DNA of 64,000 nt from Anaerocolumna sp. (GTDB taxonomy: Bacteria > Bacillota > Clostridia > Lachnospirales > Lachnospiraceae), in contig JAQSXJ010000005.1 of assembly GCA_029256725.1 (NCBI GenBank), forward strand, positions 124,001 through 188,000, written 5' to 3'. Shown here in pieces: positions 1 through 18,525 of this stretch. Each line of letters starts with the position of its first letter. Position 1 is the stretch's first letter. The notes under the pieces are model-generated. The model was given only the letters and a program-made list of their open reading frames with translations. It did not search any database and was not told where the DNA came from. The position numbers and the translations under genes are program-made.

Positions 1-1
1 A

Positions 2-1039
2 GAAGCAGGTATCTGCGGAATGGGTGGAGCTGGTTTTCCTGCTTATGCAAAGCTTGATACTGATTTAAGCCAAGGTGGTATGGTAATCATAAATGCTGCG
101 GAATGTGAACCGATTCTTAATCACAACCTTAAACGGATTGCAGCAAGTCCTAAAGAAATAGTAGAAGGTCTGTTAATAGTCCAAAAGATTACAGGTGCGG
201 CAAAAGGCATTATAGCTTTGAAAGAAAAACATTCAAATGAAGTGAAAATATTGAAAGAGCATTTAAAAGAAAATATGGAGTTGGCCCTGCTGCCGGATAT
301 CTATCCTATGGGGGAAGAAAGAGCGATTGTCAGAGAAGTTACAGGTAAGTTATTAGATGCAAATTCCCTGCCTTTGGCAGCTGGTGCCGTAGTAATCAAT
401 CTGGAAACCCTGTACCGAATCTATGAAGCTGTGATTCTCAAAAAACCAGCAATAACAAAAGATCTTACGGTCGGCGGAGCAGTAGAAAAGGGAATCACAG
501 TACTGCTTGATGTGCCGGTTGGCACCCAAGTGGAAAGTCTGCTGCAAGAAGCCGGAGGGTTAAAACCGGATGTAGGAGAACTTATATTAGGAGGACCTTT
601 TACAGGTAAGAGGACTATAAAAGAGGAATATATCAGTAAAACCACAGGAGGAATTATAGCCGCTATGCCCTTCTTACAGGATAAAAGAAATATGGGATTA
701 TTGGTGTGTGCCTGTGGTGCAGGTGAAGAAAGACTTCGCCAGATAGCTGCTTCCATGGGTGCCAAGGTTGTGGGTGTCGAGTTTTGCAAGCAGGCCCATG
801 AAGTAAAAGGTAATCTAAAATGTGATAACCCCGGCAAATGTCCCGGTCAGTCAGCCAAAGTGCTAAAACTGCGAAGTCAAGGTGCCGAGACTTTATTAAT
901 CAGCAATTGTACAGATTGCAGCAACACGGTAATGTCCATTGCTCCGGGACTTAAAATGCCGGTATATCATTGTACCGACGGTGCGCTCAGAGCTGCAGGT
1001 TTACGGTTAGTAAGGAAAGTCCGGTTAGGTGGAGTCTGA
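2..1039 (+). CDS. prdC: Proline reductase-associated electron transfer protein PrdC (5' end outside window)
   Basis: RnfC-like protein thought to pass electrons to D-proline reductase. The frame is open from base 2, so the start and roughly the first fifth of the protein lie upstream; 345 residues are visible. The first visible residues form the glycine-rich GMGGAGFP motif shared with RnfC/NuoF-type flavin and NADH binding proteins. A Cys-rich C-terminal part (visible residues about 230-320, with CACG, a CDNPGKC segment and CTDC) fits PrdC rather than a true Rnf subunit. prdA follows after 158 bases, the usual prd context. A Cys lies just before the GMGGAGFP motif. I recall, but cannot check, that some PrdC proteins carry selenocysteine near there; no in-frame TGA is visible here. 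Function is inferred from family and context. Confidence 0.85.
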   Translation, partial: EAGICGMGGAGFPAYAKLDTDLSQGGMVIINAAECEPILNHNLKRIAASPKEIVEGLLIVQKITGAAKGIIALKEKHSNEVKILKEHLKENMELALLPDIYPMGEERAIVREVTGKLLDANSLPLAAGAVVINLETLYRIYEAVILKKPAITKDLTVGGAVEKGITVLLDVPVGTQVESLLQEAGGLKPDVGELILGGPFTGKRTIKEEYISKTTGGIIAAMPFLQDKRNMGLLVCACGAGEERLRQIAASMGAKVVGVEFCKQAHEVKGNLKCDNPGKCPGQSAKVLKLRSQGAETLLISNCTDCSNTVMSIAPGLKMPVYHCTDGALRAAGLRLVRKVRLGGV

Positions 1040-1098
1040 AATCTCATTGTGTCGTTCTGAACACACTATGAAGTATTCCAGATCACAAAATGGAACCC

Positions 1099-1136
1099 TT
1101 AGCTTAGCATAAGCAGCTTTTAAATATGCCTAAAAA
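1099..1136 (+). repeat. Small intergenic hairpin motif, copy 1
   Basis: Just downstream of prdC the stretch GCATAAGC-N-GC, TTTTAAA and GCCTAA can fold with TTAGCA pairing to TGCCTAA (one bulge). It also contains the short dyad GCTTA-GCA-TAAGC. A very similar stretch lies directly after prdB (4073-4105). It may be an mRNA 3'-end or processing structure; no T-tract makes it a standard terminator. Confidence 0.4.
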
Positions 1137-1138
1137 CA

Positions 1139-1165
1139 ATTGATAATTTATAGATTGATAATTTA
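1139..1165 (+). repeat. Tandem 12-base direct repeat upstream of prdA
   Basis: ATTGATAATTTA occurs twice, at 1139-1150 and 1154-1165, a 15-base period, about 33 bases before the prdA start codon. It could be a regulator site or the AT-rich part of a weak promoter; no good promoter hexamer pair could be assigned. Confidence 0.35.
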
Positions 1166-1197
1166 AAGAATACATTAAATTCAAAGGAGAGTAGCGT

Positions 1198-2415
1198 ATG
1201 TCAATTTCAAAAGAAACATTACAGAAACATCTGAAAGACCCTGCAATATTTTGCTGCCAGAGACAAAAGGGGCTGTTAATCAGCGAGGCGGATCTAGAGG
1301 ATCCCGTTATATTTCCTGATCTTGAGGATTCCGGACTATTAACCCTATCCAAAGAAGGACTAACCATTGAAGCTGTTATCGGAAAAACCTTAAAGAAGAA
1401 TGTAGAAGCACTTACCCCCATAACCGGTGAGATGCTGGTGGAAGGAAACTCTATTGCTAAGGTTTCTGATGAAGCGAATGAGGTTAGTGAAGAAGTAAAT
1501 ACAAGTAAAATAACATTTAACGGAGGAGACGGAATGATTCATCTATCTATTGAAGAACTAAAAGGACTAACCCTTGATATTCCATTAAACAGCCTGACTT
1601 TGCCCTTAGCCGGTATCACCGGAACAACCTTAGTCGGATCTAAGGAGCTCCAAACCACTATGGATATCGTAAATAAGGATAACAAATCTTCTTCTAATAC
1701 TGTAATTCCTGCTAATGCCGTAATTCCTGCTGATAAAATACTACCTACTGATAGAGTGCTCCCTGCTCACAAAGTACTGCGTACATTAGTGAAGAAAGAA
1801 TATAAGGTAAAAGAAGTTATCCTTGGAGATACTACTTCCTTTGACAGCGGAATTCTTACCATTGATAAAGGACTGGTTCAAAAAGCCAAAGACTGTAATC
1901 CGCTGGTGAAAGCCGTAGAACTTGACATTATCACAGTAGAGAACAGGCACATATTTACCAATACCATTATGGATATTATCCCTGTTGCTGCTAAGATAAG
2001 TGGTAAATTAGGAGAAGGAGAGACTGCAGTACTAGATGGTGTGGTATTCTGCTTAACAGGCCTTGATGAAAAAGGGGTACAGATACATGAGTTCGGTTCC
2101 TGCGAAGGATTCATTGATGAAAAAGTTGCCTTTGGAAGACCTGGCTGTCCGGATGAAACAGATATCATGATTCGGGTAAATGTAGTGATTCAGGAAGGCA
2201 CCGGAATGGAGCGAAGAGGTCCCTTTGCCGCTCATTGCGCCTGCGACCTCATTATTCAGGAAATCAGAGAAGTACTCAAAAAAACGACTGCCCCTGTAAT
2301 TTCAGAAGAAGTATTAAAGGATGTACATAAATACGACCGTCCAAGAGTTGTATTAGTAAAAGAGATTATGGGACAGGGTGCTATGCATGATAACATTCTC
2401 CGAATGAAGTATTAG
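1198..2415 (+). CDS. prdA: D-proline reductase proprotein PrdA, N-terminal part (frame breaks before the normal end)
   Basis: PrdA is the proprotein that is cleaved to give the large subunit and the pyruvoyl-bearing subunit of D-proline reductase, the cytoplasmic Stickland enzyme reducing D-proline to 5-aminovalerate. The start has a good ribosome site (AAAGGAGAG, 1182-1190). The N-terminus (FCCQ at residues 18-21, then the LEDSGLLTL stretch) and the RPRVVLVKEIMGQGAMHDN block near the end look like PrdA. The frame stops at 2413-2415, only a few residues after MHDN. The rest of PrdA continues in another frame from about 2400 (see the 2463-2975 entry). Residues about 169-192 are four tandem six-residue units of the type [V/I][I/L]P[A/T][N/D]x, an unusual linker. 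The gene is either broken or mis-sequenced by a base near 2400. Confidence 0.85.
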   Translation: MSISKETLQKHLKDPAIFCCQRQKGLLISEADLEDPVIFPDLEDSGLLTLSKEGLTIEAVIGKTLKKNVEALTPITGEMLVEGNSIAKVSDEANEVSEEVNTSKITFNGGDGMIHLSIEELKGLTLDIPLNSLTLPLAGITGTTLVGSKELQTTMDIVNKDNKSSSNTVIPANAVIPADKILPTDRVLPAHKVLRTLVKKEYKVKEVILGDTTSFDSGILTIDKGLVQKAKDCNPLVKAVELDIITVENRHIFTNTIMDIIPVAAKISGKLGEGETAVLDGVVFCLTGLDEKGVQIHEFGSCEGFIDEKVAFGRPGCPDETDIMIRVNVVIQEGTGMERRGPFAAHCACDLIIQEIREVLKKTTAPVISEEVLKDVHKYDRPRVVLVKEIMGQGAMHDNILRMKY

Positions 2416-2462
2416 ATGGAGGAATACATGCACTTACCTGTATCGGACCTGCCACAAAAGAA

Positions 2463-2975
2463 ATGACCAGACATTATTTCAGAGAACCACTGGTGAAAGA
2501 ACTGGCATTGGATGAGGAACTGGATCTGGTGGGAGTTATTTTTATCGGAAGTCCTCAGGTTAACGATGAGAAGCTTTATGTTTCCGAAAGACTGGGTGCA
2601 CTGGTGGAAACCATGAATCTGGACGGAGCAATCGTTACGACCGAAGGCTTTGGCAACAATCATATAGACTTTGCCAGTAATATAGCTGCTATCGGAAGCC
2701 GTGACATACCGGTGGTAGGCGTTACTTTCTCTGCCTATCAGGGACAGCTGGTGGTCGGCAATAAATATATGGATGCCATGATTGAACTGAATAAAGATTC
2801 GGAAGGTTTTGAAAATGAGATTCTTGGCTGCAGCTCCATATGTCCGGAAGATGCAAAAAGAGCCGTACTTATGTTAAAGACCAAAATGGCTGGAATCCCT
2901 ATTGAAGCAGCGGAAAGAAAATGGTCTCAGGCAGTAATTGACAGCAATCAGAAGCTGGTTGATGCACTTGCCTAA
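2463..2975 (+). CDS. prdA: PrdA C-terminal part (pyruvoyl subunit region), out of frame with the N-terminal part
   Basis: This frame encodes the C-terminal PrdA domain, including the SPQVNDEK, TTEGFGNNHIDFASN and AYQGQLVVGNKYMDAM blocks. Coding sequence in this frame actually starts near 2400, reading PNEVLDGGIHALTC before the ATG at 2463. That ATG therefore need not be a real start and has no good ribosome site. The Thr-Cys pair at 2436-2441 is my candidate for the autocatalytic cleavage point that yields the N-terminal pyruvoyl group. From it to the stop is about 178 residues, somewhat short of the 23-kDa subunit reported for Clostridium sticklandii. Restoring one base (for example a third C in CTCCGA) rejoins the two parts smoothly. 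A small deletion is an alternative, because homologues may have extra residues at this point. Confidence 0.8.
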   Translation: MTRHYFREPLVKELALDEELDLVGVIFIGSPQVNDEKLYVSERLGALVETMNLDGAIVTTEGFGNNHIDFASNIAAIGSRDIPVVGVTFSAYQGQLVVGNKYMDAMIELNKDSEGFENEILGCSSICPEDAKRAVLMLKTKMAGIPIEAAERKWSQAVIDSNQKLVDALA

Positions 2976-2987
2976 AGGGGGTAACTT

Positions 2988-3179
2988 ATGATGCAGGTTG
3001 AATTAATTCCGCAGCTTACAAAAGCGAAAATAGTCGAAATCAACGATACGGCAGTTAGGGTAAGTATTCAGGGGAGATTAGGCGTAATTACGGTACCTTT
3101 AAGGTGGGTAATTACCGAGAAGGAATTACAGCCAGGGCAGGAAGTGGAATTTTATTTCAGCTATATGAATGTAAGATAA
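2988..3179 (+). CDS. Small prd-cluster protein (CBO2463/CBO2479-like domain)
   Basis: A 63-residue protein with a strong ribosome site (AAAGGGGG, 2974-2981) lying 12 bases after prdA. Its size, all-beta look (alternating V/I stretches, KAKIVEINDTAVRVSIQGRLG) and position between prdA and prdB match the small conserved protein found in prd loci of Clostridium botulinum and relatives, known only by locus-style domain names. No catalytic motif, signal peptide or membrane segment is visible. The role is unknown; the conserved position suggests help in assembly or regulation of proline reductase, which is inference. Confidence 0.75.
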   Translation: MMQVELIPQLTKAKIVEINDTAVRVSIQGRLGVITVPLRWVITEKELQPGQEVEFYFSYMNVR

Positions 3180-3346
3180 ACCGGTAATGCATTAAGGAAG
3201 TTTACTGCAACTCATTACTGGAATTTGGTCATAGAAAAGCGGTATCAAGTAACCGCGGTATCTGCAAACAGGCAAGGGGAGTTTCAACTAATTGCTTGCC
3301 TTAATATCAGAATTTTACTATTTGTGAACAAGAATGGAGGAGCTTT
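3180..3346 (+). other. Spacer between the small prd gene and prdB with two weak hairpins
   Basis: The 167-base gap holds AGGCAAG (3270-3276) pairing with CTTGCCT (3295-3301) and an upstream GCGGT/ACCGC-type dyad near 3239-3256. No T-tract follows either, so neither is a standard terminator. The prdB ribosome site (GGAGG) is at its right end. Confidence 0.35.
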
Positions 3347-4072
3347 ATGCAATTAACAACAGCTACAGGATTAAAATCAGAAATATTTGTACCTATTACA
3401 CCGGAGGCAGTATGGACACCCCTTACAAAACCTTTAAGTGAATGCAAGGTTGCTTTTATAACTGCCGGAGGTATCCATCAGAAATCACAGAAACCCTTTA
3501 ATACCGCAGGCGATTATTCCTACAGGGAAATTCCTTCCGATATTCCTACCTCTGAACTTACGGTAACCCATGGCGGTTTTGATAATTCAGACATCAATAA
3601 GGATGCCAATGCCATGTTCCCCTTAGACAGACTCAGGGAGCTGGTTGCAGCAGGAGTTATCGGAAGCCTTGCAGATACCATGTTCGGCTTTATGGGAGGC
3701 GGTGGAAATGTTGAAAAGTTCACCAACGAAACCGGTCCTGAAATAGCCGGAAGGCTGAAAGAACAGGGTGTCGATATCGTAATCTGCACCGGCGGCTGCG
3801 GTACCTGCCACCGCTCTGCGGTTATCGTGGAGCGTGCCTGTGAGAAACTTGGTATGTCAACAATTATTATAGCGGCACTTCCTCCTATTGCCAGACAGCA
3901 GGGTGCACCCCGTATAACAGCCCCTCATGTACCCATTGGTTCAAATGCAGGAGAACCCAATAATAAAGAAATGCAGACTGCTATTCTAATGGATACCCTG
4001 AATGCTTTGGTAGAAATGCAGTCCTTTGGCGAATTGAAAGTACTGCCTTATGAATACAGACACAATGTATAA
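3347..4072 (+). CDS. prdB: D-proline reductase subunit PrdB, cysteine form
   Basis: Catalytic 26-kDa-class subunit of D-proline reductase, 241 residues, a normal length. The GFMGGGGNVEKF block (113-124), the active-site block TGGCGTCHRSAVIV (148-161) and the NAGEPNNKEMQTAIL block identify it. In the characterised enzyme the first residue of the UGTC motif is selenocysteine encoded by TGA. Here it is TGC (Cys151), leaving a plain CGTC. There is therefore no selenocysteine codon in this subunit. A GGAGGAGC ribosome site precedes the ATG by the right distance. The enzyme may still be active with a Cys pair, probably less efficiently; that is inference. Confidence 0.93.
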   Translation: MQLTTATGLKSEIFVPITPEAVWTPLTKPLSECKVAFITAGGIHQKSQKPFNTAGDYSYREIPSDIPTSELTVTHGGFDNSDINKDANAMFPLDRLRELVAAGVIGSLADTMFGFMGGGGNVEKFTNETGPEIAGRLKEQGVDIVICTGGCGTCHRSAVIVERACEKLGMSTIIIAALPPIARQQGAPRITAPHVPIGSNAGEPNNKEMQTAILMDTLNALVEMQSFGELKVLPYEYRHNV

Positions 4073-4105
4073 TCGAGCATAAGCGGTTTTCAAACACGCC
4101 TTAGC
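4073..4105 (+). repeat. Small intergenic hairpin motif, copy 2
   Basis: Directly after the prdB stop, the stretch GCATAAGCGG, TTTTCAAA and CACGCCTTA parallels the stretch after prdC (1099-1136). TAAGCG pairs with CGCCTTA with one bulge. No T-tract follows. Confidence 0.4.
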
Positions 4106-4186
4106 AAGTTTATGAAAGTAGTATCAGTTAAGCTGTAAGTGAGGATAAGCTTCCTACAATTTTAGCAAGTAATTCCGGAGGTAAAT

Positions 4187-4768
4187 ATGGCACAGGAAAG
4201 TATAAAAAAGAAGAAAATCATAGAAACAGCATTTAAGCTTTTTTATGAGCAGGGATACGACTCCACCACCATTGAACAGATCATCAGTGAATGCAAGGTT
4301 TCAAAAGGTACCTTTTATCATTATTTTAATGCTAAGACAGATTTATTCAGTTCCCTGTCCGATCTATTTGATGAACAGTACCAGATTATCCTAAAGGACA
4401 TGAATCCAGAACTGCATAGTTTTGATAAATTAATCTACATGTCAAAGCATTTATTTAAATATATTGAAGATAAGATACCCGTTGATATTCTGGCTTATCT
4501 CTATTCTTCTCAGGTAACCAGCAAAGGAGAGAAATATCTGCTGAATCAGAACCGGTATTATTATAAAGCTCTTATGCGGATTATCGAAGATGGACAGAAG
4601 AAAAAGGAATTAAAGAATGAGCGTTCCTCCAGAGAATTAATGAAGATCTATGCTATGCAGGAACGTTCTATTCTCTATGACTGGTGTATCTGTGAAGGAA
4701 ATTACCCCCTGGCTTCTTACGGTATTGAACTTCTGACAATCTTTATACAGGGATTTCGAGAGAAGTAA
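4187..4768 (+). CDS. TetR/AcrR family transcriptional regulator
   Basis: 193 residues. The N-terminal TetR helix-turn-helix spans about residues 8-55 (KIIETAFKLFYEQGYDSTTI, then VSKGTFYHYFNAKTDLF), followed by an all-helical ligand domain with no recognisable family name. The start has a GGAGG site eight bases upstream. It sits where prd loci often carry the sigma-54 activator PrdR, between prdB and an aminotransferase/dehydrogenase pair. A palindrome over the promoter of that pair (4889-4909) is a natural operator candidate, so it probably represses those genes. The ligand is unknown; 5-aminovalerate or another proline-derived metabolite is a guess. Confidence 0.9.
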   Translation: MAQESIKKKKIIETAFKLFYEQGYDSTTIEQIISECKVSKGTFYHYFNAKTDLFSSLSDLFDEQYQIILKDMNPELHSFDKLIYMSKHLFKYIEDKIPVDILAYLYSSQVTSKGEKYLLNQNRYYYKALMRIIEDGQKKKELKNERSSRELMKIYAMQERSILYDWCICEGNYPLASYGIELLTIFIQGFREK

Positions 4769-4786
4769 GATTAGTAAGATTTATCA

Positions 4787-4887
4787 ATATAAATTGAATA
4801 AAGTTATGGCTTTTATATCTGTACAGGTATGAGAACACCATACTTTCAAGCGTTTATATACTTGGACAGGAAAAATTCAATTTATAT
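4787..4887 (+). repeat. Widely spaced 13-base inverted repeat
   Basis: ATATAAATTGAAT at 4787-4799 is perfectly complementary to ATTCAATTTATAT at 4875-4887. The right half covers the spacer and start of the -10 box of the aminotransferase promoter. It may be a pair of regulator half-sites that could loop, or a hairpin at the end of the tetR transcript. Confidence 0.45.
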
Positions 4888-4890
4888 AAT
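4862..4890 (+). promoter_or_regulatory. Sigma-A type promoter of the aminotransferase-dehydrogenase pair
   Basis: TTGGAC (4862-4867), a 17-base spacer and a perfect TATAAT (4885-4890). The start of transcription would be near 4897, leaving a leader of about 175 bases before the aminotransferase. Confidence 0.75.
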
Positions 4891-4909
4891 ACCAAAATAT
4901 ATGTGGTAT
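4889..4909 (+). promoter_or_regulatory. Candidate TetR operator
   Basis: ATACCA (4889-4894), nine bases, TGGTAT (4904-4909): a perfect six-base dyad overlapping the -10 box and the predicted transcription start. This is the position expected of a repressor operator. The adjacent TetR-family gene is the obvious candidate binder. Confidence 0.5.
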
Positions 4910-5073
4910 CCTCCGGCATTCACATGTATTTTTCATAGGGATTAGAAAGGTTATAAATATATGAAAAAGGATAAGGCAGAAAGTAAATCATAAGGAAAGA
5001 AGCCACAAATCATGCTTTCTGTCTGTTGTTGTGGCCGTAGGGCAGAAGAAACTGCAATACGCAGGAGAGGATA
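4910..5073 (+). other. Leader of the aminotransferase transcript
   Basis: Part of the 305-base gap 4769-5073. After the promoter it contains a possible 10-codon reading frame (ATG 4961, stop TAA 4991-4993) behind a GAAAGG site. A hairpin GCCACAA (5002-5008)/TTGTGGC (5029-5035) follows. The aminotransferase ribosome site (AGGAGAGG) is at the end. Nothing else was recognised. Confidence 0.4.
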
Positions 5074-6288
5074 ATGAAATTAAGTGAAACCGGTAAGTCA
5101 AAAGAGGAGATAAAATCTCTTGTAAAAAAATATATGATCGATACCTATGAACGTTTTGATATGGTTGCCGAAACAGCCAAAGATATGTATATCTATGACG
5201 CAGACGGAGATGCATATCTGGATTTCTATGCAGGCATAGCCGTAAACAGTGCAGGTAACTGCAATGAAAAAGTGGTGGCAGCGGTTACGGACCAGGTAAA
5301 AGATATCATGCATACCTTTAATTATCCCTATACTATTCCTCAGGCACTGCTGGCAGAAAAAATCTGTACCACTATCGGGATGGATAAGATTTTTTATCAG
5401 AACTCAGGAACAGAATCCAACGAAGCCATGATAAAACTGGCAAGAAAATATGGTACAGAAAAATACGGACCGGATAAATATAATATTATTACAGCCAAAA
5501 AGGGTTTCCATGGCAGAAGTTTTGGTTCCATGTCTGCAACAGGACAGCCGGGCTCTGCGATACAAAATGGCTTTGGCGGAATGGTTCCGGGTTTTACTTA
5601 TGCGGATTTTAATGATTTAGAAGCCTTTAAAGCTGCTTATACGGAAAATACCATTGGTATAATGATAGAACCGGTACAAGGGGAAGGCGGTGTACATCCT
5701 GCAACGAAAGAATTCATGTCAGGTCTTCGTGCTTTCTGTGATGAAAAAGGAATACTGCTGTTGCTGGATGAAGTACAGACCGGCTGGTGCAGAACCGGAA
5801 CGGTAATGTGCTATATGCAATACGGAATAAAACCGGATATAGTATCAATGGCAAAAGCTATGGGTGGCGGAATGCCCATCGGTGCCATCTGTACAACGAA
5901 TGAAGTAGCGAAGGCATTTTCTATGGGCTCCCACGGAACCACCTACGGCGGACATCCGGTCAGCTGTGCAGCTGCACTCGCTCAGATTAATGAACTTTTA
6001 GACAGAGATCTGGCAGGGAATGCAGAAAAGATGGGGGAATATTTTAAAGGCCTGCTGGCAAAGCTTCCCCACGTAAAAGAAGTAAGAGGCGCTGGATTAT
6101 TGGTGGGAGCGGAATTTGACGAAACAATCAATGCAGTAGATGTAAAGCACGGCTGCTTTGACCGTAAATTAATTATAACTGCAATCGGAAGTAGTGTTAT
6201 AAGAATGGTACCGCCGCTTATTGTAACCAAAGAGGATTGTGATAAAGCCTATGAGATTATAAAAGAAACCGTCCTGTCATTGGTTTAG
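5074..6288 (+). CDS. Class III PLP-dependent aminotransferase (candidate 5-aminovalerate/4-aminobutyrate type)
   Basis: 404 residues, full length for the acetylornithine/ornithine/4-aminobutyrate aminotransferase family. Visible motifs are NSGTESNEAMIKLAR (110-124, phosphate binding), GFHGRSFGSMSATG (144-157), LDEVQTGWCRTG (231-242) and SMAKAMGGGMPIG, in which Lys261 should bind PLP. The group includes enzymes acting on omega-amino groups. Here the gene follows D-proline reductase, whose product is 5-aminovalerate, and precedes an iron-dependent alcohol dehydrogenase by 13 bases. I therefore infer 5-aminovalerate to glutarate semialdehyde, with 4-aminobutyrate as an alternative. An acetylornithine role is less likely because no arg genes are nearby. 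Confidence 0.9.
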   Translation: MKLSETGKSKEEIKSLVKKYMIDTYERFDMVAETAKDMYIYDADGDAYLDFYAGIAVNSAGNCNEKVVAAVTDQVKDIMHTFNYPYTIPQALLAEKICTTIGMDKIFYQNSGTESNEAMIKLARKYGTEKYGPDKYNIITAKKGFHGRSFGSMSATGQPGSAIQNGFGGMVPGFTYADFNDLEAFKAAYTENTIGIMIEPVQGEGGVHPATKEFMSGLRAFCDEKGILLLLDEVQTGWCRTGTVMCYMQYGIKPDIVSMAKAMGGGMPIGAICTTNEVAKAFSMGSHGTTYGGHPVSCAAALAQINELLDRDLAGNAEKMGEYFKGLLAKLPHVKEVRGAGLLVGAEFDETINAVDVKHGCFDRKLIITAIGSSVIRMVPPLIVTKEDCDKAYEIIKETVLSLV

Positions 6289-6301
6289 AAAAGAGGTATC
6301 T

Positions 6302-7450
6302 ATGAAAATGTTTAATTTTTCTGTTCCTCAGGAGATAATTTTCGGAGAAGGAGCTTTGGCACGTATTGGAGAACTCTTAAAGAAAAGCTCTGCTAAGAAC
6401 CCTTTTCTGATATCCGGTAAGAATCTGACCAGATTGGGTGTGGTGGACAGAGTAGCAAAGCTGGCAGCAGAAGCAGGGTACACTGCAGAGATATTTAATG
6501 ATGTAGAAGCGAATCCTTCTGTGGAAACAGTAGAAAAAGCAGTGAAAGCCTATAAGCTTAGCGGTTGTGACTGTATTATTGCTTTGGGTGGCGGAAGTCC
6601 AATGGACGTTGCAAAAGCAGTAGGTGTAGTTGCAGTATTTGGAGGCAGTATTAAAGATTATGAGGGAGCCGGAAAGGTGCCTGGGAAAATTACTCCGATC
6701 ATAGCAATTCCCACTACAGCCGGTACAGGAAGTGAGGTTACAGCCTTTACTGTTATAACCGACCATGAGCGAAATTATAAATTGACGGTATTTAGTTATG
6801 AGCTGATACCGGAATATGCACTCCTTGACCCTGAACTTATTATGTCCCTTCCCAAATCAGTGGCAGCAGCTACAGGAATTGATGCCCTGGTGCATGCCAT
6901 AGAAGCTTATTTATCCAAAGCCGGTTCACCTTTTACAGATTCCATGGCAGAAAAGGCAATGGAACTGATTGGTGGTAACCTCAGACAATTTGTATCAGAC
7001 AGAAGCAACAGGGAAGCAGCGGCTGCCATGTTGACCGGTTCTATGTTTGCAGGACTGGCCTTTGCCTGGGCAAGGCTTGGAAACGTACATGCCATGGCAC
7101 ATCCGCTGGGCGGGTATTTTGATGTACCTCATGGAGTAGCCAATGCAATCTTACTGCCGGTTGTGATGGAGTTTAACGCCCAGGCCGACCAGGGAAGATA
7201 TCAGAAAATATATAATTATCTGGTACCGGATAAAATTTCAGAAGAGAAATTTGTACCGGAAGTCTTGGTGAAAGAGCTTCAAGAATTGACTGCTTCCCTT
7301 GGTATTCCTCAGAAACTTAAAGAAGTCGGGGTAACAGAAGATAAAATACCGGAGATGGCAGCAGATGCAATGAAGAGCGGTAACATCCTTGTCAATCCGA
7401 GAGAGACAACTCTAGAAGATGTGATAAGCCTATATTTTGAGGCGTTGTAG
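6302..7450 (+). CDS. Iron-containing alcohol dehydrogenase (candidate 5-hydroxyvalerate/4-hydroxybutyrate dehydrogenase)
   Basis: 382 residues, a typical length for the group III metal-dependent alcohol dehydrogenases. The NAD-binding GGGSPMD motif is at residues 96-102 and TTAGTGSE at 138-145. The metal ligands expected for the family are Asp194, His198 (DALVH), His263 (NVHAMAHPLGG) and His277 (VPHG). It starts 13 bases after the aminotransferase with an AGAGGT site, so the two should be co-transcribed. The likely job is to reduce the semialdehyde released by the aminotransferase to the omega-hydroxy acid using NADH. The exact substrate cannot be read from sequence. Confidence 0.9.
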   Translation: MKMFNFSVPQEIIFGEGALARIGELLKKSSAKNPFLISGKNLTRLGVVDRVAKLAAEAGYTAEIFNDVEANPSVETVEKAVKAYKLSGCDCIIALGGGSPMDVAKAVGVVAVFGGSIKDYEGAGKVPGKITPIIAIPTTAGTGSEVTAFTVITDHERNYKLTVFSYELIPEYALLDPELIMSLPKSVAAATGIDALVHAIEAYLSKAGSPFTDSMAEKAMELIGGNLRQFVSDRSNREAAAAMLTGSMFAGLAFAWARLGNVHAMAHPLGGYFDVPHGVANAILLPVVMEFNAQADQGRYQKIYNYLVPDKISEEKFVPEVLVKELQELTASLGIPQKLKEVGVTEDKIPEMAADAMKSGNILVNPRETTLEDVISLYFEAL

Positions 7451-7473
7451 TTGCGTAATGCTTTAGTTGTGAA

Positions 7474-7497
7474 TTTACTGTTACAGTAAAATTTTTT
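7474..7497 (+). terminator. Intrinsic terminator after the alcohol dehydrogenase
   Basis: TTTACTG, loop TTA, CAGTAAA, then ATTTTTT. The seven-base stem with a T-run lies 24 bases after the stop codon. Confidence 0.6.
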
Positions 7498-7625
7498 AGA
7501 ACCCTAAACAGAAAATGGATAATTTTAAACCAAAATCATGGAACATTTCCAAAGACATCTTACCTATATTTTCTGTGCAGGACCCCTCAAGGCAAACACG
7601 TGCAACTAAATATTAGGAATACGCA

Positions 7626-7859
7626 GATAATTGAGGGTTTGGTTTTTTCGTTTTGTATCGAAAGGCTCCCTATGACACTTAAGTGGCAGCTGCCGTGACT
7701 AGCGGAAAAAGTGCCAGTGTTTGAGCAGCTGTAAGCTACCGAAGCCACAGTGCTCCAGCGAGTTTGGCACTTTTTCCGCTTCCAGGAACGGCAGCTGCCG
7801 CTTTAGTGGAATAAGGAGCCTTGAGCAACAAAAACGAAAAAACCAAACCCTCAATTATC
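7626..7859 (+). repeat. Large palindromic element 1 (about 234 bases)
   Basis: The two ends are long imperfect inverted copies with arms of about 90 bases. The outer stem GATAATTGAGGGTTTGG starts at 7626 and is matched exactly at the far end (to 7859), with the inner TTTTTTCGTTTT also paired. A central perfect 16-base stem pairs 7701-7716 with 7765-7780. The apex begins GTTTGAGC (7719-7726) and ends GCGAGTT (7758-7764). The same apex words occur in the second palindrome at 13489-13702. It holds no credible gene. It fills most of the 664-base gap 7451-8114 together with the terminator and promoter listed separately. Confidence 0.8.
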
Positions 7860-7916
7860 GTCCGTTTCCCATATCCCTTATTGATGTATTTCCCCTGCAC
7901 AACTCCTCAGCTGACA

Positions 7917-7945
7917 TTGACAAGGAAAATCCGGTGTTATATAAT
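7917..7945 (+). promoter_or_regulatory. Consensus sigma-A promoter for murE
   Basis: TTGACA (7917-7922), exactly 17 bases, TATAAT (7940-7945): a full match to the sigma-A consensus. It lies about 60 bases after palindromic element 1 and about 170 bases before murE. Confidence 0.85.
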
Positions 7946-7978
7946 GAATAAAAGTATGGGTATTCTATTACCTTGAGA

Positions 7979-8015
7979 TAAAGCCCGTCCGGGTAAGCTT
8001 GGATGGGCTTTTCTG
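7979..8015 (+). terminator. Terminator-like hairpin in the murE leader (possible attenuator)
   Basis: AAAGCCCGTCC pairs with GGATGGGCTTT (one G-T wobble), followed by a short T-rich stretch TTTTCT. It lies roughly 30 bases after the expected transcription start of the murE promoter, so it may attenuate the operon. The T-run is short, so termination may be partial. Confidence 0.45.
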
Positions 8016-8114
8016 TTGGAAAATACAAGGAAGCCCAAAGTATGGAATATGAGTATTTCCCTTTCATATATTATAATAATTCAGCCGTAGAGCAGGGCTA
8101 TGTAGGAGGTATTT

Positions 8115-9596
8115 ATGCAGCTTAAGAAATTATTGGAAAAAACTGAATATACACTGGTAAGAGGGACTTTGGATACGGAAATTCTGGATCTGGTATATGA
8201 TTCCAGAAAAGTAAAACCAAGTTCCGTTTTTGTATGTATCAAGGGATTTAAAATAGACGGGCATGATTTTGCCAGGGAAGTTGTAGAAAAAGGAGCTAAA
8301 GTTCTTGTGGTTTCCCAGGAGGTGGAAGTTGACGGTGAGGTTACGGTAATCCGTGTTGCGGATACCAGACTGGCACTGGCGGAGCTCTCAGCTGCCTATT
8401 TTGATCACCCGGCGGCAAAGCTTAAAACCATCGGTATCACCGGAACCAAAGGTAAAACTACCACCGCCTATATGGTGCGTTCCATCCTGGAAGATGCAGG
8501 TATAAAGACAGGACTTGTGGGAACCATAGAAGTCATTATTGGAGACAATGTCATACCGGCTGCCAATACAACCCCGGAATCCTATCAGATTCAGGAGTAC
8601 TTTGCCAGAATGGTTGAAGAGGGTTGTGAAGCAGTGGTAATGGAAGTCTCTTCACAGGGCTTAATGCTTTCAAGAGTTGGCGGCTTTACCTTTGATTACG
8701 GTATCTTTACAAATATAGAGCCGGATCATATCGGCCCCGATGAACACAAGGATTTTGAAGAATATATGGCTTGCAAGGGGCTTCTCTTTAAACAGTGCCT
8801 GGTGGGAATTGCCAATGCGGATGATTCCCATATGGAGGAGGTATTAAAGGGACATACCTGTAAGCTTGAAACATACAGCCTGGAGAAAGAAGCAGATTTG
8901 ATGGCCTGCAACATAAACCTTCATAGTATGGATGGAAGCCTTGGGGTGAATTATGATCTTAAGGGACTGTTAAACTACTCCGTACATTTAAATCTGCCGG
9001 GTAAATTCAATGTTTACAATTCACTGACTGCCATTGCCATCTGCAGACATTTCGGAATCAGTGAAGAGAATATAAAGAAAGCACTGCTATCCGTTAAAGT
9101 AAAGGGAAGAGTTGAGCCGGTTACCATATCTTCTAATTTTTCCATGATGATTGATTATGCTCATAATGCCATGTCCCTGAAAAGCCTCCTTACGACCATT
9201 AAGGAATATGCGCCCAAAAGACTGGTATGCCTCTTTGGCTGCGGCGGTAACCGTTCCAAGTTAAGAAGATATGAGATGGGCGAAATCTCCTCAAATCTTG
9301 CAGATCTTACTGTTGTAACCTCTGATAACCCCAGATTTGAAGAACCGGAGGAAATCTTGAATGATATTATAACCGGTGTTAAGAAAGGTCAGGGAGAATA
9401 TATAGCAATTATAGACAGGAAAGAAGCCATTAAATATTGTATCGAAAATGCCATTGCAGGTGATGTAATTATCCTTGCCGGAAAAGGTCATGAAGATTAT
9501 CAGGAAATCAAAGGTGTAAAGTATAAAATGGATGAGAGAGATCTGATTCGTCAGGCTGTTGATGAAATCAAAGCAGAAGGCAAAGTTATTTTATAA
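8115..9596 (+). CDS. murE: UDP-N-acetylmuramoyl-L-alanyl-D-glutamate--2,6-diaminopimelate ligase MurE
   Basis: Cytoplasmic Mur ligase that adds the third amino acid to the peptidoglycan stem peptide using ATP. It has 493 residues, full length. The P-loop GTKGKTTTAY lies at residues 110-119, the central ligase block includes the TNIEPDHI segment, and DNPR is at 404-407. DNPR is the signature of enzymes choosing meso-diaminopimelate, so the wall is probably DAP type. The ribosome site GGAGG lies at the right distance before ATG. murF follows after 21 bases. Both lie outside the dcw cluster found 18 kb downstream. Confidence 0.96.
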   Translation: MQLKKLLEKTEYTLVRGTLDTEILDLVYDSRKVKPSSVFVCIKGFKIDGHDFAREVVEKGAKVLVVSQEVEVDGEVTVIRVADTRLALAELSAAYFDHPAAKLKTIGITGTKGKTTTAYMVRSILEDAGIKTGLVGTIEVIIGDNVIPAANTTPESYQIQEYFARMVEEGCEAVVMEVSSQGLMLSRVGGFTFDYGIFTNIEPDHIGPDEHKDFEEYMACKGLLFKQCLVGIANADDSHMEEVLKGHTCKLETYSLEKEADLMACNINLHSMDGSLGVNYDLKGLLNYSVHLNLPGKFNVYNSLTAIAICRHFGISEENIKKALLSVKVKGRVEPVTISSNFSMMIDYAHNAMSLKSLLTTIKEYAPKRLVCLFGCGGNRSKLRRYEMGEISSNLADLTVVTSDNPRFEEPEEILNDIITGVKKGQGEYIAIIDRKEAIKYCIENAIAGDVIILAGKGHEDYQEIKGVKYKMDERDLIRQAVDEIKAEGKVIL

Positions 9597-11142: not shown

Positions 11143-13383
11143 ATGAAATATGCAGATATCATAGTTGACATCTCCCATGAAGATCTGGATCGTACCTATC
11201 AATACCTGATACCGGAAGCGCTTAGAGACAGCGCTTTAATCGGAGCCCAGGTGCTCATCCCCTTCGGAAAAGGAAACAGACAGATAAAGGGATACATTAC
11301 CGGATTGTCCGATAAACCGAAATGGAAGGAAGAAGCCATAAAACCGATTACTTCTCTGGCGGATGATACCTTAATGATCGAAGGTCAGCTTATCAGCCTG
11401 GCAGCCTGGATGCGGAACACTTTTGGCTCTACCATGAATGAGGCTCTTAAAACAGTAATTCCTGTTAAAAAGACAGTAAAGCAAAAAGAAGATAAGAAAA
11501 TTAAGGTGCTTCTAACGATAGAGGAACTAAATGAAGCACTAAATACGGAGAAACGTAAAAATAATAAAGGCAGAATCCGTTTAATAGAAGAGCTGTTAAA
11601 AGGAGAGACACTTGATTATGAATATGTTAGAAATAATCTGAATATCTCTCCCTCTACCATTAAGGATCTTGAGAAGCTGGGTATAATAAAGACAGAAGCT
11701 AATGTCTTATATCGAAATCCAGTCAGTGATTATGAGGTTTCAGAGAAAAATGTAGTACTTAGTGACAGGCAGCAGGAAATAGCGGATGATTTTATTAAGG
11801 ATTACAGAGAAGGAATACGAAGGACCTATCTTTTACATGGTGTTACCGGCAGCGGTAAAACAGAAGTATATATAAATATAATAGAAGAAATGATAAGACT
11901 TGGTAAGCAGGTCATTGTACTGATTCCGGAAATTTCTCTTACTTATCAGACGGTCATGCGTTTCTTTCAAAAATTTGGTGACCGCGTATCAATTATGAAT
12001 TCAAAACTGTCCGGCGGGGAAAAATATGACCAGTATCTCAGAGCCAAAAACGGTGATATAGACATTATCATTGGTCCCAGATCGGCTCTCTTCACCCCTT
12101 TTAAGAACCTTGGACTCATTATTATGGATGAAGAGCATGAAGGCAGTTATAAAAGTGAGAATCCGCCAAAGTATCATGCCAGAGAAACCGCTATTGAAAG
12201 AGCCAGGTTATCCGGTGCCAGTGTACTTTTAGGGTCTGCAACTCCTTCTCTGGAATCCTATAAGAAAGCCCTGGAGGGTGAATATACCCTTTACCGTCTG
12301 GAATCCAGAGAAGGTACCAGACAGATGCCCTCTATTTGGACCGAGGATTTAAGAGAGGAATTAAAAGCCAGGAATAAATCCATTTTCAGCAGAAGGTTAA
12401 AGACCCTTATGGAAGACCGGCTTAAAAAGGGAGAGCAGATAATGCTGTTTATAAACCGCAGAGGTTATGCAGGTTTTATTTCCTGCAGAAGCTGTGGTTT
12501 CGTATTAAAATGCCCTCATTGTGATATTTCTCTTACTTCCCATAACAATGGAAAGATGGTCTGCCATTACTGCGGGCATGAGGAGGATTATCCGAAAACC
12601 TGCCCCTCCTGCGGTTCAAAATATATTGCTGCTTTTGGTACCGGAACCCAGAAAGTAGAGGAAATGGTTCGAAAAGAATTTCCTTACGCCAGAATTCTTC
12701 GAATGGATATGGACACTACGAAAAAAAAAGGTGGACATGAAGAAATACTTGCTGCCTTTTCCAAAGGGCAGGCAGATATTCTGGTTGGAACCCAGATGAT
12801 CGTAAAGGGCCATGACTTTCCTAAAGTTACCTTGGTGGGTATACTGGCAGCAGATTTATCCCTCCATGCAGCAGACTTTCGTGCCTCGGAGAGGACTTTT
12901 CAGCTCCTGACACAGGCAGCAGGCAGAGCCGGGAGAGCAGAACTGCCGGGAGAAGTGGTGATTCAGACTTATCAGCCGGAGCATCATAGCATCGTCTATG
13001 CCGGAAAAGGTGACTACGAAGGCTTTTACAAGCAGGAAATGCTGTTTCGTAAACTGATGGCTTATCCTCCGGCCTCTCATATTCTGGCGGTGCTTATTGC
13101 CTCAAAAGAAGAGGGAAAAGGAATAGAAGCGGCAGAGCTTTTAACGGACAGCTTAAAACAATGGGAAAAGGATGAGGAACTGAAAGAGTATCATATTATC
13201 GGACCTTCACCGGCCAGCCTGTCAAAGGTCAATGATATCTACCGGTTCTGCTTATATATAAAGGAAGAAGATTATAACAGACTAATTACTGCAAAGGATT
13301 TTCTGGACGGATTTTATCGTTTTTCTGATAAATTTCAAGGAATTGTCGTCCAATTTGACTTTGATCCGATGAACAGTTATTGA
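11143..13383 (+). CDS. priA: Primosomal protein PriA (replication restart helicase)
   Basis: Superfamily 2 DNA helicase that reloads the replisome at stalled forks. It has 746 residues. There is an N-terminal 3'-end DNA-binding domain, Walker A GVTGSGKT at 233-240, Walker B DEEH at 329-332, and a zinc module of four CxxC/CxxxC pairs at about residues 448-494 (CRSCG, CPHC, CHYC, CPSCG). A C-terminal helicase half includes VGTQMIVKGHDFP and AAGRAGR. It follows murF by 31 bases with AAGGTGG upstream of ATG. It appears intact and has no unusual features. Confidence 0.96.
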   Translation: MKYADIIVDISHEDLDRTYQYLIPEALRDSALIGAQVLIPFGKGNRQIKGYITGLSDKPKWKEEAIKPITSLADDTLMIEGQLISLAAWMRNTFGSTMNEALKTVIPVKKTVKQKEDKKIKVLLTIEELNEALNTEKRKNNKGRIRLIEELLKGETLDYEYVRNNLNISPSTIKDLEKLGIIKTEANVLYRNPVSDYEVSEKNVVLSDRQQEIADDFIKDYREGIRRTYLLHGVTGSGKTEVYINIIEEMIRLGKQVIVLIPEISLTYQTVMRFFQKFGDRVSIMNSKLSGGEKYDQYLRAKNGDIDIIIGPRSALFTPFKNLGLIIMDEEHEGSYKSENPPKYHARETAIERARLSGASVLLGSATPSLESYKKALEGEYTLYRLESREGTRQMPSIWTEDLREELKARNKSIFSRRLKTLMEDRLKKGEQIMLFINRRGYAGFISCRSCGFVLKCPHCDISLTSHNNGKMVCHYCGHEEDYPKTCPSCGSKYIAAFGTGTQKVEEMVRKEFPYARILRMDMDTTKKKGGHEEILAAFSKGQADILVGTQMIVKGHDFPKVTLVGILAADLSLHAADFRASERTFQLLTQAAGRAGRAELPGEVVIQTYQPEHHSIVYAGKGDYEGFYKQEMLFRKLMAYPPASHILAVLIASKEEGKGIEAAELLTDSLKQWEKDEELKEYHIIGPSPASLSKVNDIYRFCLYIKEEDYNRLITAKDFLDGFYRFSDKFQGIVVQFDFDPMNSY

Positions 13384-17481: not shown

Positions 17482-18525
17482 ATGGATAAAACAGATATTA
17501 AATCCTTAAATCTGGAGGAATTAAAGAAATTTATAACAAAAGCTGGAGAGAAACCTTTCAGAGCTTCACAAATATACGAATGGCTGCATGTAAAACTGGC
17601 CTGGGATTTTGAAGAGATGACAAACGTTTCTAAGTCTTTGAGGACATACCTGACAGAGAATGCAGAGCTTAAGAAACTGACCCTTGTCAGGACCCTTACT
17701 TCCAAAACTGGTGAAACCTCTAAGTTCTTATTTCAGTTAGAGGATGGCAACCTTTTAGAATGTGTACTTATGAAGTATCACTACGGAAACAGTGTATGCA
17801 TCTCCTCTCAGGTTGGCTGTAAGATGGGTTGCAGATTCTGTGCTTCGACACTCAACGGCTTTGAGAGAAATCTCACTGCTTCTGAAATGTTGAATCAGAT
17901 ATATATGATACAGAGGATAACCGGTGAAAGGGTTTCTAATGTGGTGGTTATGGGAACCGGAGAACCACTTGATAATTACGATAATCTGGTTTCCTTTATT
18001 AAGATTTTAACGGATGATAAGGGGCTTCATATCAGCCAGAGAAATATTACCGTATCAACCTGCGGACTGGCAGATAAGATCAGGCAATTAGCGGAAGAGG
18101 AGCTGCAAATAACACTGGCACTTTCCCTCCATGCTTCAAACGATACAACAAGAAAAGAATTAATGCCCATAGCTAACCGGTATTCTATTGCTGAGGTTTT
18201 AGCAGCCTGTGATTACTATTTTGAAAAGACCGGCAGAAGAATGACCTTCGAATATAGTCTAATAGCAGGTGAGAATGATAAAGAAGAGCAGGCAAGAGAA
18301 CTCTCCAAGCTGTTAAAGGGAAAAAATGCACATGTGAATCTTATACCGGTAAACCCGATTAAAGAGCGTAATTACAAGCAATCACAGGTCGAAAGTATCC
18401 AGAAATTCAAATTAATACTTGAAAAATACGGAATAAATGTTACTATTAGAAGAGAAATGGGAACAGATATAGACGCTGCCTGTGGACAATTAAGAAAAAG
18501 TTACATGGAAGAAACTTCCGGTTAA
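17482..18525 (+). CDS. rlmN: 23S rRNA/tRNA adenine-C2 methyltransferase RlmN
   Basis: Radical SAM enzyme that methylates A2503 of 23S rRNA and A37 of some tRNAs. It has 347 residues from the ATG at 17482, chosen over an upstream in-frame TTG because AGAGGTTA lies just before it. The iron-sulfur motif CxxxCxxC is at Cys113, Cys117 and Cys120. The catalytic C-terminal Cys is near residue 334 (DAACGQL). The phosphatase gene follows by 29 bases. No anomalies were seen. Confidence 0.96.
   Translation: MDKTDIKSLNLEELKKFITKAGEKPFRASQIYEWLHVKLAWDFEEMTNVSKSLRTYLTENAELKKLTLVRTLTSKTGETSKFLFQLEDGNLLECVLMKYHYGNSVCISSQVGCKMGCRFCASTLNGFERNLTASEMLNQIYMIQRITGERVSNVVVMGTGEPLDNYDNLVSFIKILTDDKGLHISQRNITVSTCGLADKIRQLAEEELQITLALSLHASNDTTRKELMPIANRYSIAEVLAACDYYFEKTGRRMTFEYSLIAGENDKEEQARELSKLLKGKNAHVNLIPVNPIKERNYKQSQVESIQKFKLILEKYGINVTIRREMGTDIDAACGQLRKSYMEETSG

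Follow-up and report, generated by a model that had tools for sequence, protein, structure and literature searches.

What becomes of 5-aminovalerate, in the common view the excreted final product of Stickland fermentation of proline, when proline reductase genes are followed by genes for an aminotransferase (AT) and an iron-dependent alcohol dehydrogenase (ADH)? The question is raised by a 64,000-nt stretch of Anaerocolumna sp. DNA (GenBank assembly GCA_029256725.1, contig JAQSXJ010000005.1, positions 124,001 to 188,000; G000:C139:124001-188000 in our genome set), hereafter the window, in which the 3′ part of prdC, two fragments of prdA, a small open reading frame (ORF), prdB, a TetR-family regulator gene, the AT gene and the ADH gene all lie on the + strand. 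We put at about 0.55 the probability that this segment is the downstream end of a reductive hydroxyproline/proline catabolic cluster ending in 5-hydroxyvalerate. The strongest evidence is the recurrence of the AT gene beside prd genes of the cysteine (Cys) type, which supports conversion of 5-aminovalerate to 5-hydroxyvalerate. If this reading is right, a recurrent gene pair that removes 5-aminovalerate, linked to one clade of selenium-free proline reductases and, in some genomes, to the use of hydroxyproline, would change models of the fate of this compound in anaerobic communities; it would also lead from collagen, or from hydroxyproline proteins of plants, to 5-hydroxyvalerate, and offer a testable substrate for a common AT–ADH pair.

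A first-pass annotation of the same DNA had joined the prd genes to a 5-aminovalerate-to-5-hydroxyvalerate module, an observation that we partly confirm and an interpretation that we partly support: the interpretation gains from the place of the AT gene, close to prd in 7 of 10 Cys-type genomes that have it, and loses from a broken prdA and from the many AT loci away from prd. The order given there, TetR, then aminotransferase, then iron ADH, holds in both position and family. The arrangement was also called unfamiliar from described prd loci, in agreement with our search of the open-access literature (titles and abstract openings), which found no description of prd genes combined with an AT–ADH pair. 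Three features come in addition to that annotation: a Cys instead of a selenocysteine (Sec) in PrdB, hydroxyproline and proline genes upstream, and related TetR genes at 12 prd loci with no adjacent AT gene.

Recurrence of the aminotransferase gene beside Cys-type prd genes

The AT gene (5074-6288; PF00202), proposed to encode a 5-aminovalerate:2-oxo acid aminotransferase, is separated by 13 bases from the ADH gene (6302-7450; PF00465, PF25137), whose product is the proposed glutarate semialdehyde reductase (5-hydroxyvalerate dehydrogenase). Upstream of both lies prdB (3347-4072), whose product scores 451.1 bits with TIGR04483 (cut-off 300) and carries Cys at the Sec position (CTGGCGTCHRS), without a TGA codon, so that it belongs to the PrdB family and is not of the selenocysteine form. 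The 3′ part of prdC occupies positions 2-1039 (TIGR04481, 508.8 bits, cut-off 490); the full gene, read across the window edge, starts in the upstream stretch L009 and encodes 431 aa with CxxC as the C-terminal centre. Because PrdB is of the Cys form, PrdC has CxxC and selA has no match in the genome of the window, we regard this prd set as selenium-free.

The prd operon of Clostridium sticklandii and C. difficile (prdC, prdA, prdB, prdD, prdE, prdF; PMC3091704) gives a close comparison: the window locus likewise has PrdC, PrdA, PrdB and racemase homologues, and its expected product is 5-aminovalerate. It differs in having Cys and not Sec in PrdB, CxxC and not the CxxU of C. sticklandii PrdC, a broken prdA, and no separate PrdD or PrdE in the stretch examined; moreover, its 5-aminovalerate would be processed on, not excreted. 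C. botulinum has a second set of D-proline reductase genes (PMC3091704), which resembles the window locus in having no prdD or prdE. Substitution of Sec by Cys is called rare in a review (PMC13188914). Among 397 genomes drawn from the family, 43 have PrdB above the cut-off and 8 of these have the Cys form, 2 of them together with a Sec form. A tree built from 44 PrdB sequences has one branch, with support of 100, that splits 20 Cys from 24 Sec sequences.

To follow the AT gene across this clade we used 20 Cys-PrdB genomes (8 from the family draw, 2 from the genus, 2 from an order draw and 8 from a class draw, the draws being samples), taking as AT orthologues those with 70% identity or more in this set and with E-values of 1e-160 or better in the family draw. 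An orthologue occurs in 10 of the 20, and in 7 of those 10 it is close to the prd genes and shares their strand. The window genome and Anaerocolumna sp. AGMB13025 (G405) share the order prdB-TetR-AT-ADH; G170 and G380 have prdF-AT with no adjacent ADH gene, and G153 has prdF-AT-ADH. In G712 (L209) the order is prdF-ProC-AT-ADH, on the same contig as prdB and ∼18 kb from it, with HypD and ABC transporter genes between. In G1047, from another order, it is prdC-prdA-prdB-prdF-ADH-AT, and here the ADH belongs to a different iron-ADH subfamily (32% identity to the window ADH, 57% to the reference of that subfamily). Spacing is tight, with gaps of 20-28 bases between AT and prdF in G380, G170 and G153, and of 23 bases between AT and ADH in G1047. 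The sister pairs G000/G405 and G153/G712 are not independent, yet adjacency that recurs in seven genomes is not the chance of one genome. In our reading, one pair of steps became linked to one kind of reductase on more than one occasion, which points to the product of that reductase, 5-aminovalerate, as their substrate, and it is from this recurrence that we infer 5-aminovalerate activity for the AT.

The seven cases amount to fewer independent events, as the AT tree indicates by the clustering of prd-linked ATs. This tree has 123 rows (a 121-row version in which identical ATs were entered once, with three sequences added and one distant paralogue dropped); the label "prd-linked" changes four times on it, and the starred branches force three changes.

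Within the family draw, 18 of the 35 Sec-PrdB genomes also have the AT, and in none of the 18 is it near prdB, a count by coordinates only, in drafts where AT and prdB are mostly on different contigs and some ATs lie near a contig end (L142, L149). An AT clade from Sec-PrdB genomes (18 rows, 17 genomes, 15 of them with PrdB above the cut-off) at first resembled functional co-occurrence. We gave it little weight, as it is a single clade and as its one annotated locus, L158, has metH-like, asnA, hydrogenase and alaS genes as neighbours.

The separateness of the Cys-PrdB clade, and its coexistence with Sec-PrdB in several genomes (e.g. G038, G150, G814, G843 and G928), could also mean that the Cys-form Prd is a paralogous reductase for another substrate, not a D-proline reductase, and that AT and ADH treat a different product. 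Further in favor of this is an extra protein of the PrdA/glycine reductase B family (PrdA/GrdE-like, 414-445 aa, Pfam-checked in one locus), which occurs in 9 of the 20 Cys-type loci (L126, L190:5871-7151, L198:8065-9312, L199, L200:8496-9758 and L201-L204) and in none of the 7 AT-linked loci. We give this alternative the least credence of those considered, since PrdA and PrdB of intact relatives exceed the D-proline reductase cut-offs and since proline racemase, ProC and HypD genes are neighbours.

Upstream genes and the proposed route to 5-hydroxyvalerate

The 20 kb upstream of the window (L009) contain oligopeptide-type transporter genes, a second TetR gene, ProC, a HypD activase gene, HypD and a proline racemase-like gene, with an Xaa-Pro aminopeptidase-like gene on the opposite strand. 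HypD (NF043068, 1481.6 bits, cut-off 1100), its activase (NF043069, 427.7 bits, cut-off 425) and ProC (TIGR00112, 291.2 bits, cut-off 196.75) exceed their cut-offs, and the locus thus holds the trans-4-hydroxyproline dehydratase pathway, as HypD and activase equivalogs with a pyrroline-5-carboxylate (P5C) reductase. The racemase scores 530.3 bits, slightly below its cut-off of 556, and has both Cys motifs, which we take to be catalytic; the Opp-type permease and the Xaa-Pro aminopeptidase-like protein are family matches under equivalog cut-offs. The core order ProC-activase-HypD-racemase-prdC-prdA-prdB-TetR is common to the window locus, AGMB13025 and G406, another member of the genus. AGMB13025 has an intact prdA, with TetR, AT and ADH following, and by its sequence it carries an intact version of the predicted chain. 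Adjacent HypD, activase and ProC genes are also found in C. difficile and commensal Clostridia (PMC9044972); the window locus differs in uniting them with racemase, prd, AT and ADH in one stretch.

From these genes we propose the following route. The oligopeptide-type transporter would import peptides for the Xaa-Pro peptidase to cut; HypD would convert trans-4-hydroxyproline to pyrroline-5-carboxylate, and ProC would reduce this to L-proline. The racemase would then supply D-proline, and the selenium-free, Cys-form proline reductase would open its ring to give 5-aminovalerate. The AT would move the amino group of 5-aminovalerate to a 2-oxo acid, leaving glutarate semialdehyde, which the iron ADH would reduce to 5-hydroxyvalerate for excretion. 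The substrates, the direction of AT and ADH, the end product and the use of D-proline by the Cys form are all predicted. Net, the last two steps would release the amino nitrogen; with the glutamate re-oxidized, what the cell gained would be ammonium, from an amine that is otherwise a dead end.

The first-pass annotation had suggested a second electron-consuming step here, which does not follow: an AT, glutamate dehydrogenase and an ADH are redox-neutral overall by standard stoichiometry. The pair would be neutral here if the glutamate is re-oxidized; it would serve as an electron sink only where the amino group leaves the cell in an amino acid such as alanine.

The nearest described precedent is C. 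viride (formerly assigned to C. aminovalericum), which, by one account (PMC8473912), deaminates 5-aminovalerate to 5-hydroxyvalerate and then forms valerate. The first conversion is shared with our proposal. There, 5-aminovalerate is supplied by a different organism, whereas in the window the genes for making it are next door; and the step from 5-hydroxyvalerate to valerate contrasts with the genome of the window, in which HpaB (PF03241), the acyl-CoA dehydrogenase N-domain (PF02771) and AcetylCoA_hyd_C (PF13336) have no match, the search having covered these three families. We assume that these three families serve the onward route in C. viride; with none of them found, 5-hydroxyvalerate would probably be the end product, and a valerate branch looks unlikely here.

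The proline-related genes suggest another role for the AT, as an ornithine delta-aminotransferase (OAT) that supplies P5C to ProC, and thus proline to the reductase, acting upstream of prd with the ADH unrelated. The AT is of the ArgD/OAT-type family, ProC precedes it in the prdF-ProC-AT-ADH order of G712, and relatives of ProC and PrdF lie near the AT in L023 and L024; moreover, C. sticklandii can reduce ornithine via D-proline (PMC3091704). We consider this role very unlikely, given a score with the ornithine aminotransferase model below the cut-off (TIGR01885, 293.9 bits against 378.4) and a ProC relative near only 3 of 80 AT loci, against an iron ADH in 65 of 80; feeding from ornithine would leave the ADH without a job. 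A Tyr typical of OATs also seems to be absent from the AT.

A palindrome, CTAGAACGTAGTCTAG, lies upstream of the racemase gene in all three genomes (the window genome, AGMB13025 and G406). When up to three mismatches are allowed, L009 contains 4 sites, as compared to 0.06 expected by shuffling, and such operator-like sites stand before the transporter (L009:4181-4220), at the 5′ end of the Xaa-Pro peptidase ORF (12927-12942) and before the racemase (17925-17940). It may mark a regulon of the prd TetR.

Two members of the genus, AGMB13025 and G406, have a gene for a GH127-type beta-L-arabinofuranosidase between HypD and racemase (L188:13867-17214, L186:8401-10800); no such gene is in that place in the genome of the window. 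This placement suggests arabinosylated plant cell-wall proteins of the extensin type as the source of hydroxyproline.

The prdA gene, interrupted in this assembly

In the window the prdA frame is interrupted just 5′ of the pyruvoyl-forming Thr-Cys site by a net 76-base deletion, as measured against AGMB13025 (L012). The junction that shifts the frame is at 2398-2403, by DNA comparison with L012 and G406, and the alignment shows ∼4 bases of possible microhomology there. The 5′ fragment (1198-2415, 405 aa) scores 421.8 bits with TIGR04480 over model positions 1-375, and the 3′ fragment (2463-2975, 170 aa from its first ATG) scores 300.2 bits over positions 422-587; both fall short of the cut-off of 700. 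The Thr-Cys site, which becomes the pyruvoyl group, is at 2436-2441, in the second frame and 5′ of its first ATG; that frame is open upstream of the ATG (its own reading starts HSPNEVLDGGIHALTCIGPATKE), and in a genome search the 3′ part accordingly reaches 353.5 bits over PrdA positions 399-587. Thus the window holds no PrdA proprotein above the cut-off with Thr-Cys in frame, and a search of the genome found no second prdA copy. Where the first-pass annotation had named prdC, prdA and prdB, prdC and prdB stand at the scores given above, and prdA is not confirmed as a working gene. We also considered the two ORFs as prdD and prdE, which is unlikely: the first scores 208.9 bits with the PrdD model (cut-off 320), compared to 421.8 with PrdA.

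Among 15 genomes of the genus, prdA is present in 3, and in the other two (AGMB13025 and G406) it is intact and above the cut-off. Ratios of nonsynonymous to synonymous substitution rates (dN/dS) against L012 are 0.14 and 0.02 on the two sides of the break, with synonymous sites near saturation, and such low values indicate that the break is either recent or an assembly error. An assembly error, with the chain working in the strain, is quite possible, if not what we would expect first, and is compatible with the route proposed above. The low dN/dS values are in line with it, as are the remaining genes of the locus, which are open, and the state of the assembly (5.53 Mb, a draft in 176 contigs, with a contamination estimate of 6.18%); a clean 76-base loss with ∼4 shared bases, on the other hand, resembles a deletion, and no second copy has been found. 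Even with prdA broken, AT and ADH could still use 5-aminovalerate from outside.

The aminotransferase–dehydrogenase pair away from prd, and other features of the window

A search of genome contigs with the AT confirmed 235 stretches, of which we used the best 80 (75-86% identity). An iron ADH lies within ∼6 kb of the AT in at least 65 of these 80 loci and an amino-acid ABC transporter or APC permease in at least 62, these counts being lower bounds because some loci end a few kb from the AT. A cytidylate kinase-like gene (PF13189) is near the AT in 57 loci, and a GabT-like gene additionally in 18. Nine of the 80 have a permease–iron ADH fusion, which suggests that uptake and ADH are parts of a single pathway; in L019 (11843-14497), for example, an amino-acid permease is fused to an iron ADH in a protein of 884 aa, encoded beside the AT. 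The PF13189 protein is encoded with AT modules and also in some prd loci (L064:9285-9950 and L125:11919-12515 between the two groups). The AT–ADH pair is thus first of all a common module with a wider role than prd and, judging from its neighbours, it would import an amino acid and produce an alcohol.

The AT reaches the subfamily models TIGR00707 (417.7 bits, cut-off 410.05) and PRK01278 (398.2, cut-off 372) and stays below the equivalog cut-offs of PRK02936, PRK03244 and PRK04260. Biosynthetic ArgD was considered and rejected for it: elsewhere in the genome another ArgD-like copy, 41% identical to the window AT, adjoins an ArgB-like gene (names taken from translations). The segment HTFNYPYT occurs in all 7 prd-linked ATs, in 79 of 91 other module ATs and in all 18 ATs of the Sec-genome clade, and in none of 6 more distant relatives (58-62% identity, grouped as argH-linked, with argH annotated beside one, in L167); it is absent from ArgD, and is a mark of the subfamily, not of the substrate. 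The ADH has the motifs GIDALVHAIEAY (from residue 192) and VHAMAHPLGGYFDVPHG (from residue 262), which presumably contain its Asp-His-His-His metal ligands, and with PF00465/PF25137 these place it among the iron-dependent alcohol dehydrogenases. It reaches no NCBIfam equivalog cut-off: ErcA 390.5 bits (550), lactaldehyde reductase 357.7 (523.15), 4-hydroxybutyrate dehydrogenase 283.9 (500).

The pair could instead be a general omega-amino acid module, acting on 4-aminobutyrate, beta-alanine or several chain lengths and taking the semialdehyde to the hydroxy acid, with 5-aminovalerate at most a minor substrate and prd adjacency a result of broad use. The neighbour counts fit this, as do the GabT-like genes, the presence of prd in 1 of the 80 loci and an ADH that fits no equivalog. 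We nonetheless hold it unlikely, as the repeated placement of the AT in prd loci within a single PrdB clade, and of a different iron ADH in the prd operon of G1047, would be hard to explain without a link through the product. A broader proposal, tentative and on balance doubtful, is that the pair is itself a widespread 5-aminovalerate-to-5-hydroxyvalerate module: in Lachnospiraceae, Oscillospiraceae, Acetobacterium and Treponema it would be tied to amino-acid uptake and scavenge the Stickland end product of neighbours, and in some lineages it would have become linked, on more than one occasion, with a selenium-free proline reductase, a single organism then taking hydroxyproline all the way to 5-hydroxyvalerate.

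A number of observations weigh against the hydroxyproline-to-5-hydroxyvalerate route as a reading of the window. In its own genome, as assembled, the chain is cut at the proline reductase by the broken prdA. The first-pass annotation had named a location of the pair mostly away from prd genes as grounds for refuting its reading, and taken literally this is what we see: 79 of the 80 AT loci have no prd gene within ∼6 kb. For a second of the 80, L023, prd is ∼18 kb off in the matching genome, G712. Half of the Cys-PrdB genomes (10 of 20) lack an AT orthologue by the thresholds applied here, and in three others (G150, G038 and G406) the AT is elsewhere, G406 having a hyp-prd cluster with no adjacent AT–ADH; G170 and G380 have the AT with no ADH beside it. 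On the AT tree the prd-linked sequences cluster in part (0 of 500 shuffles gave as few label changes), and the Cys clade may contain enzymes of more than a single type, given the distribution of the extra PrdA/GrdE-like protein. Among solved proteins, the AT is closest to acetylornithine aminotransferases and the ADH to methanol and 1,3-propanediol dehydrogenases. Finally, a search upstream of the AT for an operator in common with prd gave none, with neither a prdF-type operator-like site nor a CTAGAACGTAGTCTAG palindrome near the gene.

The TetR gene (4187-4768; PF00440) belongs with prd rather than with the AT. Its relatives are found in 12 prd loci with no adjacent AT, among them 10 Sec-type loci (42-47% identity), L126 (45% and 57%) and G406 (85%), and it is absent from 5 of the 7 AT-linked loci (G170, G380, G153, G712 and G1047); a role as dedicated regulator of AT and ADH was rejected on these grounds. 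Between prdA and prdB, the small ORF (2988-3179, 63 aa) has no Pfam match, and its tblastn relatives stand between prdA and prdB of many prd loci. No Rfam element reaches its gathering threshold in positions 1-8200 of the window, and consensus promoter and terminator scans gave numbers close to those of shuffled sequence (promoter-like, 19 compared to 19.9 expected; terminator-like, 7 compared to 6.0). Downstream of the ADH gene a murE-like ORF, so named from its translation, begins at 8115, and between the two lies a long inverted repeat (7626-7859) with perfect outer arms of 29 bases.

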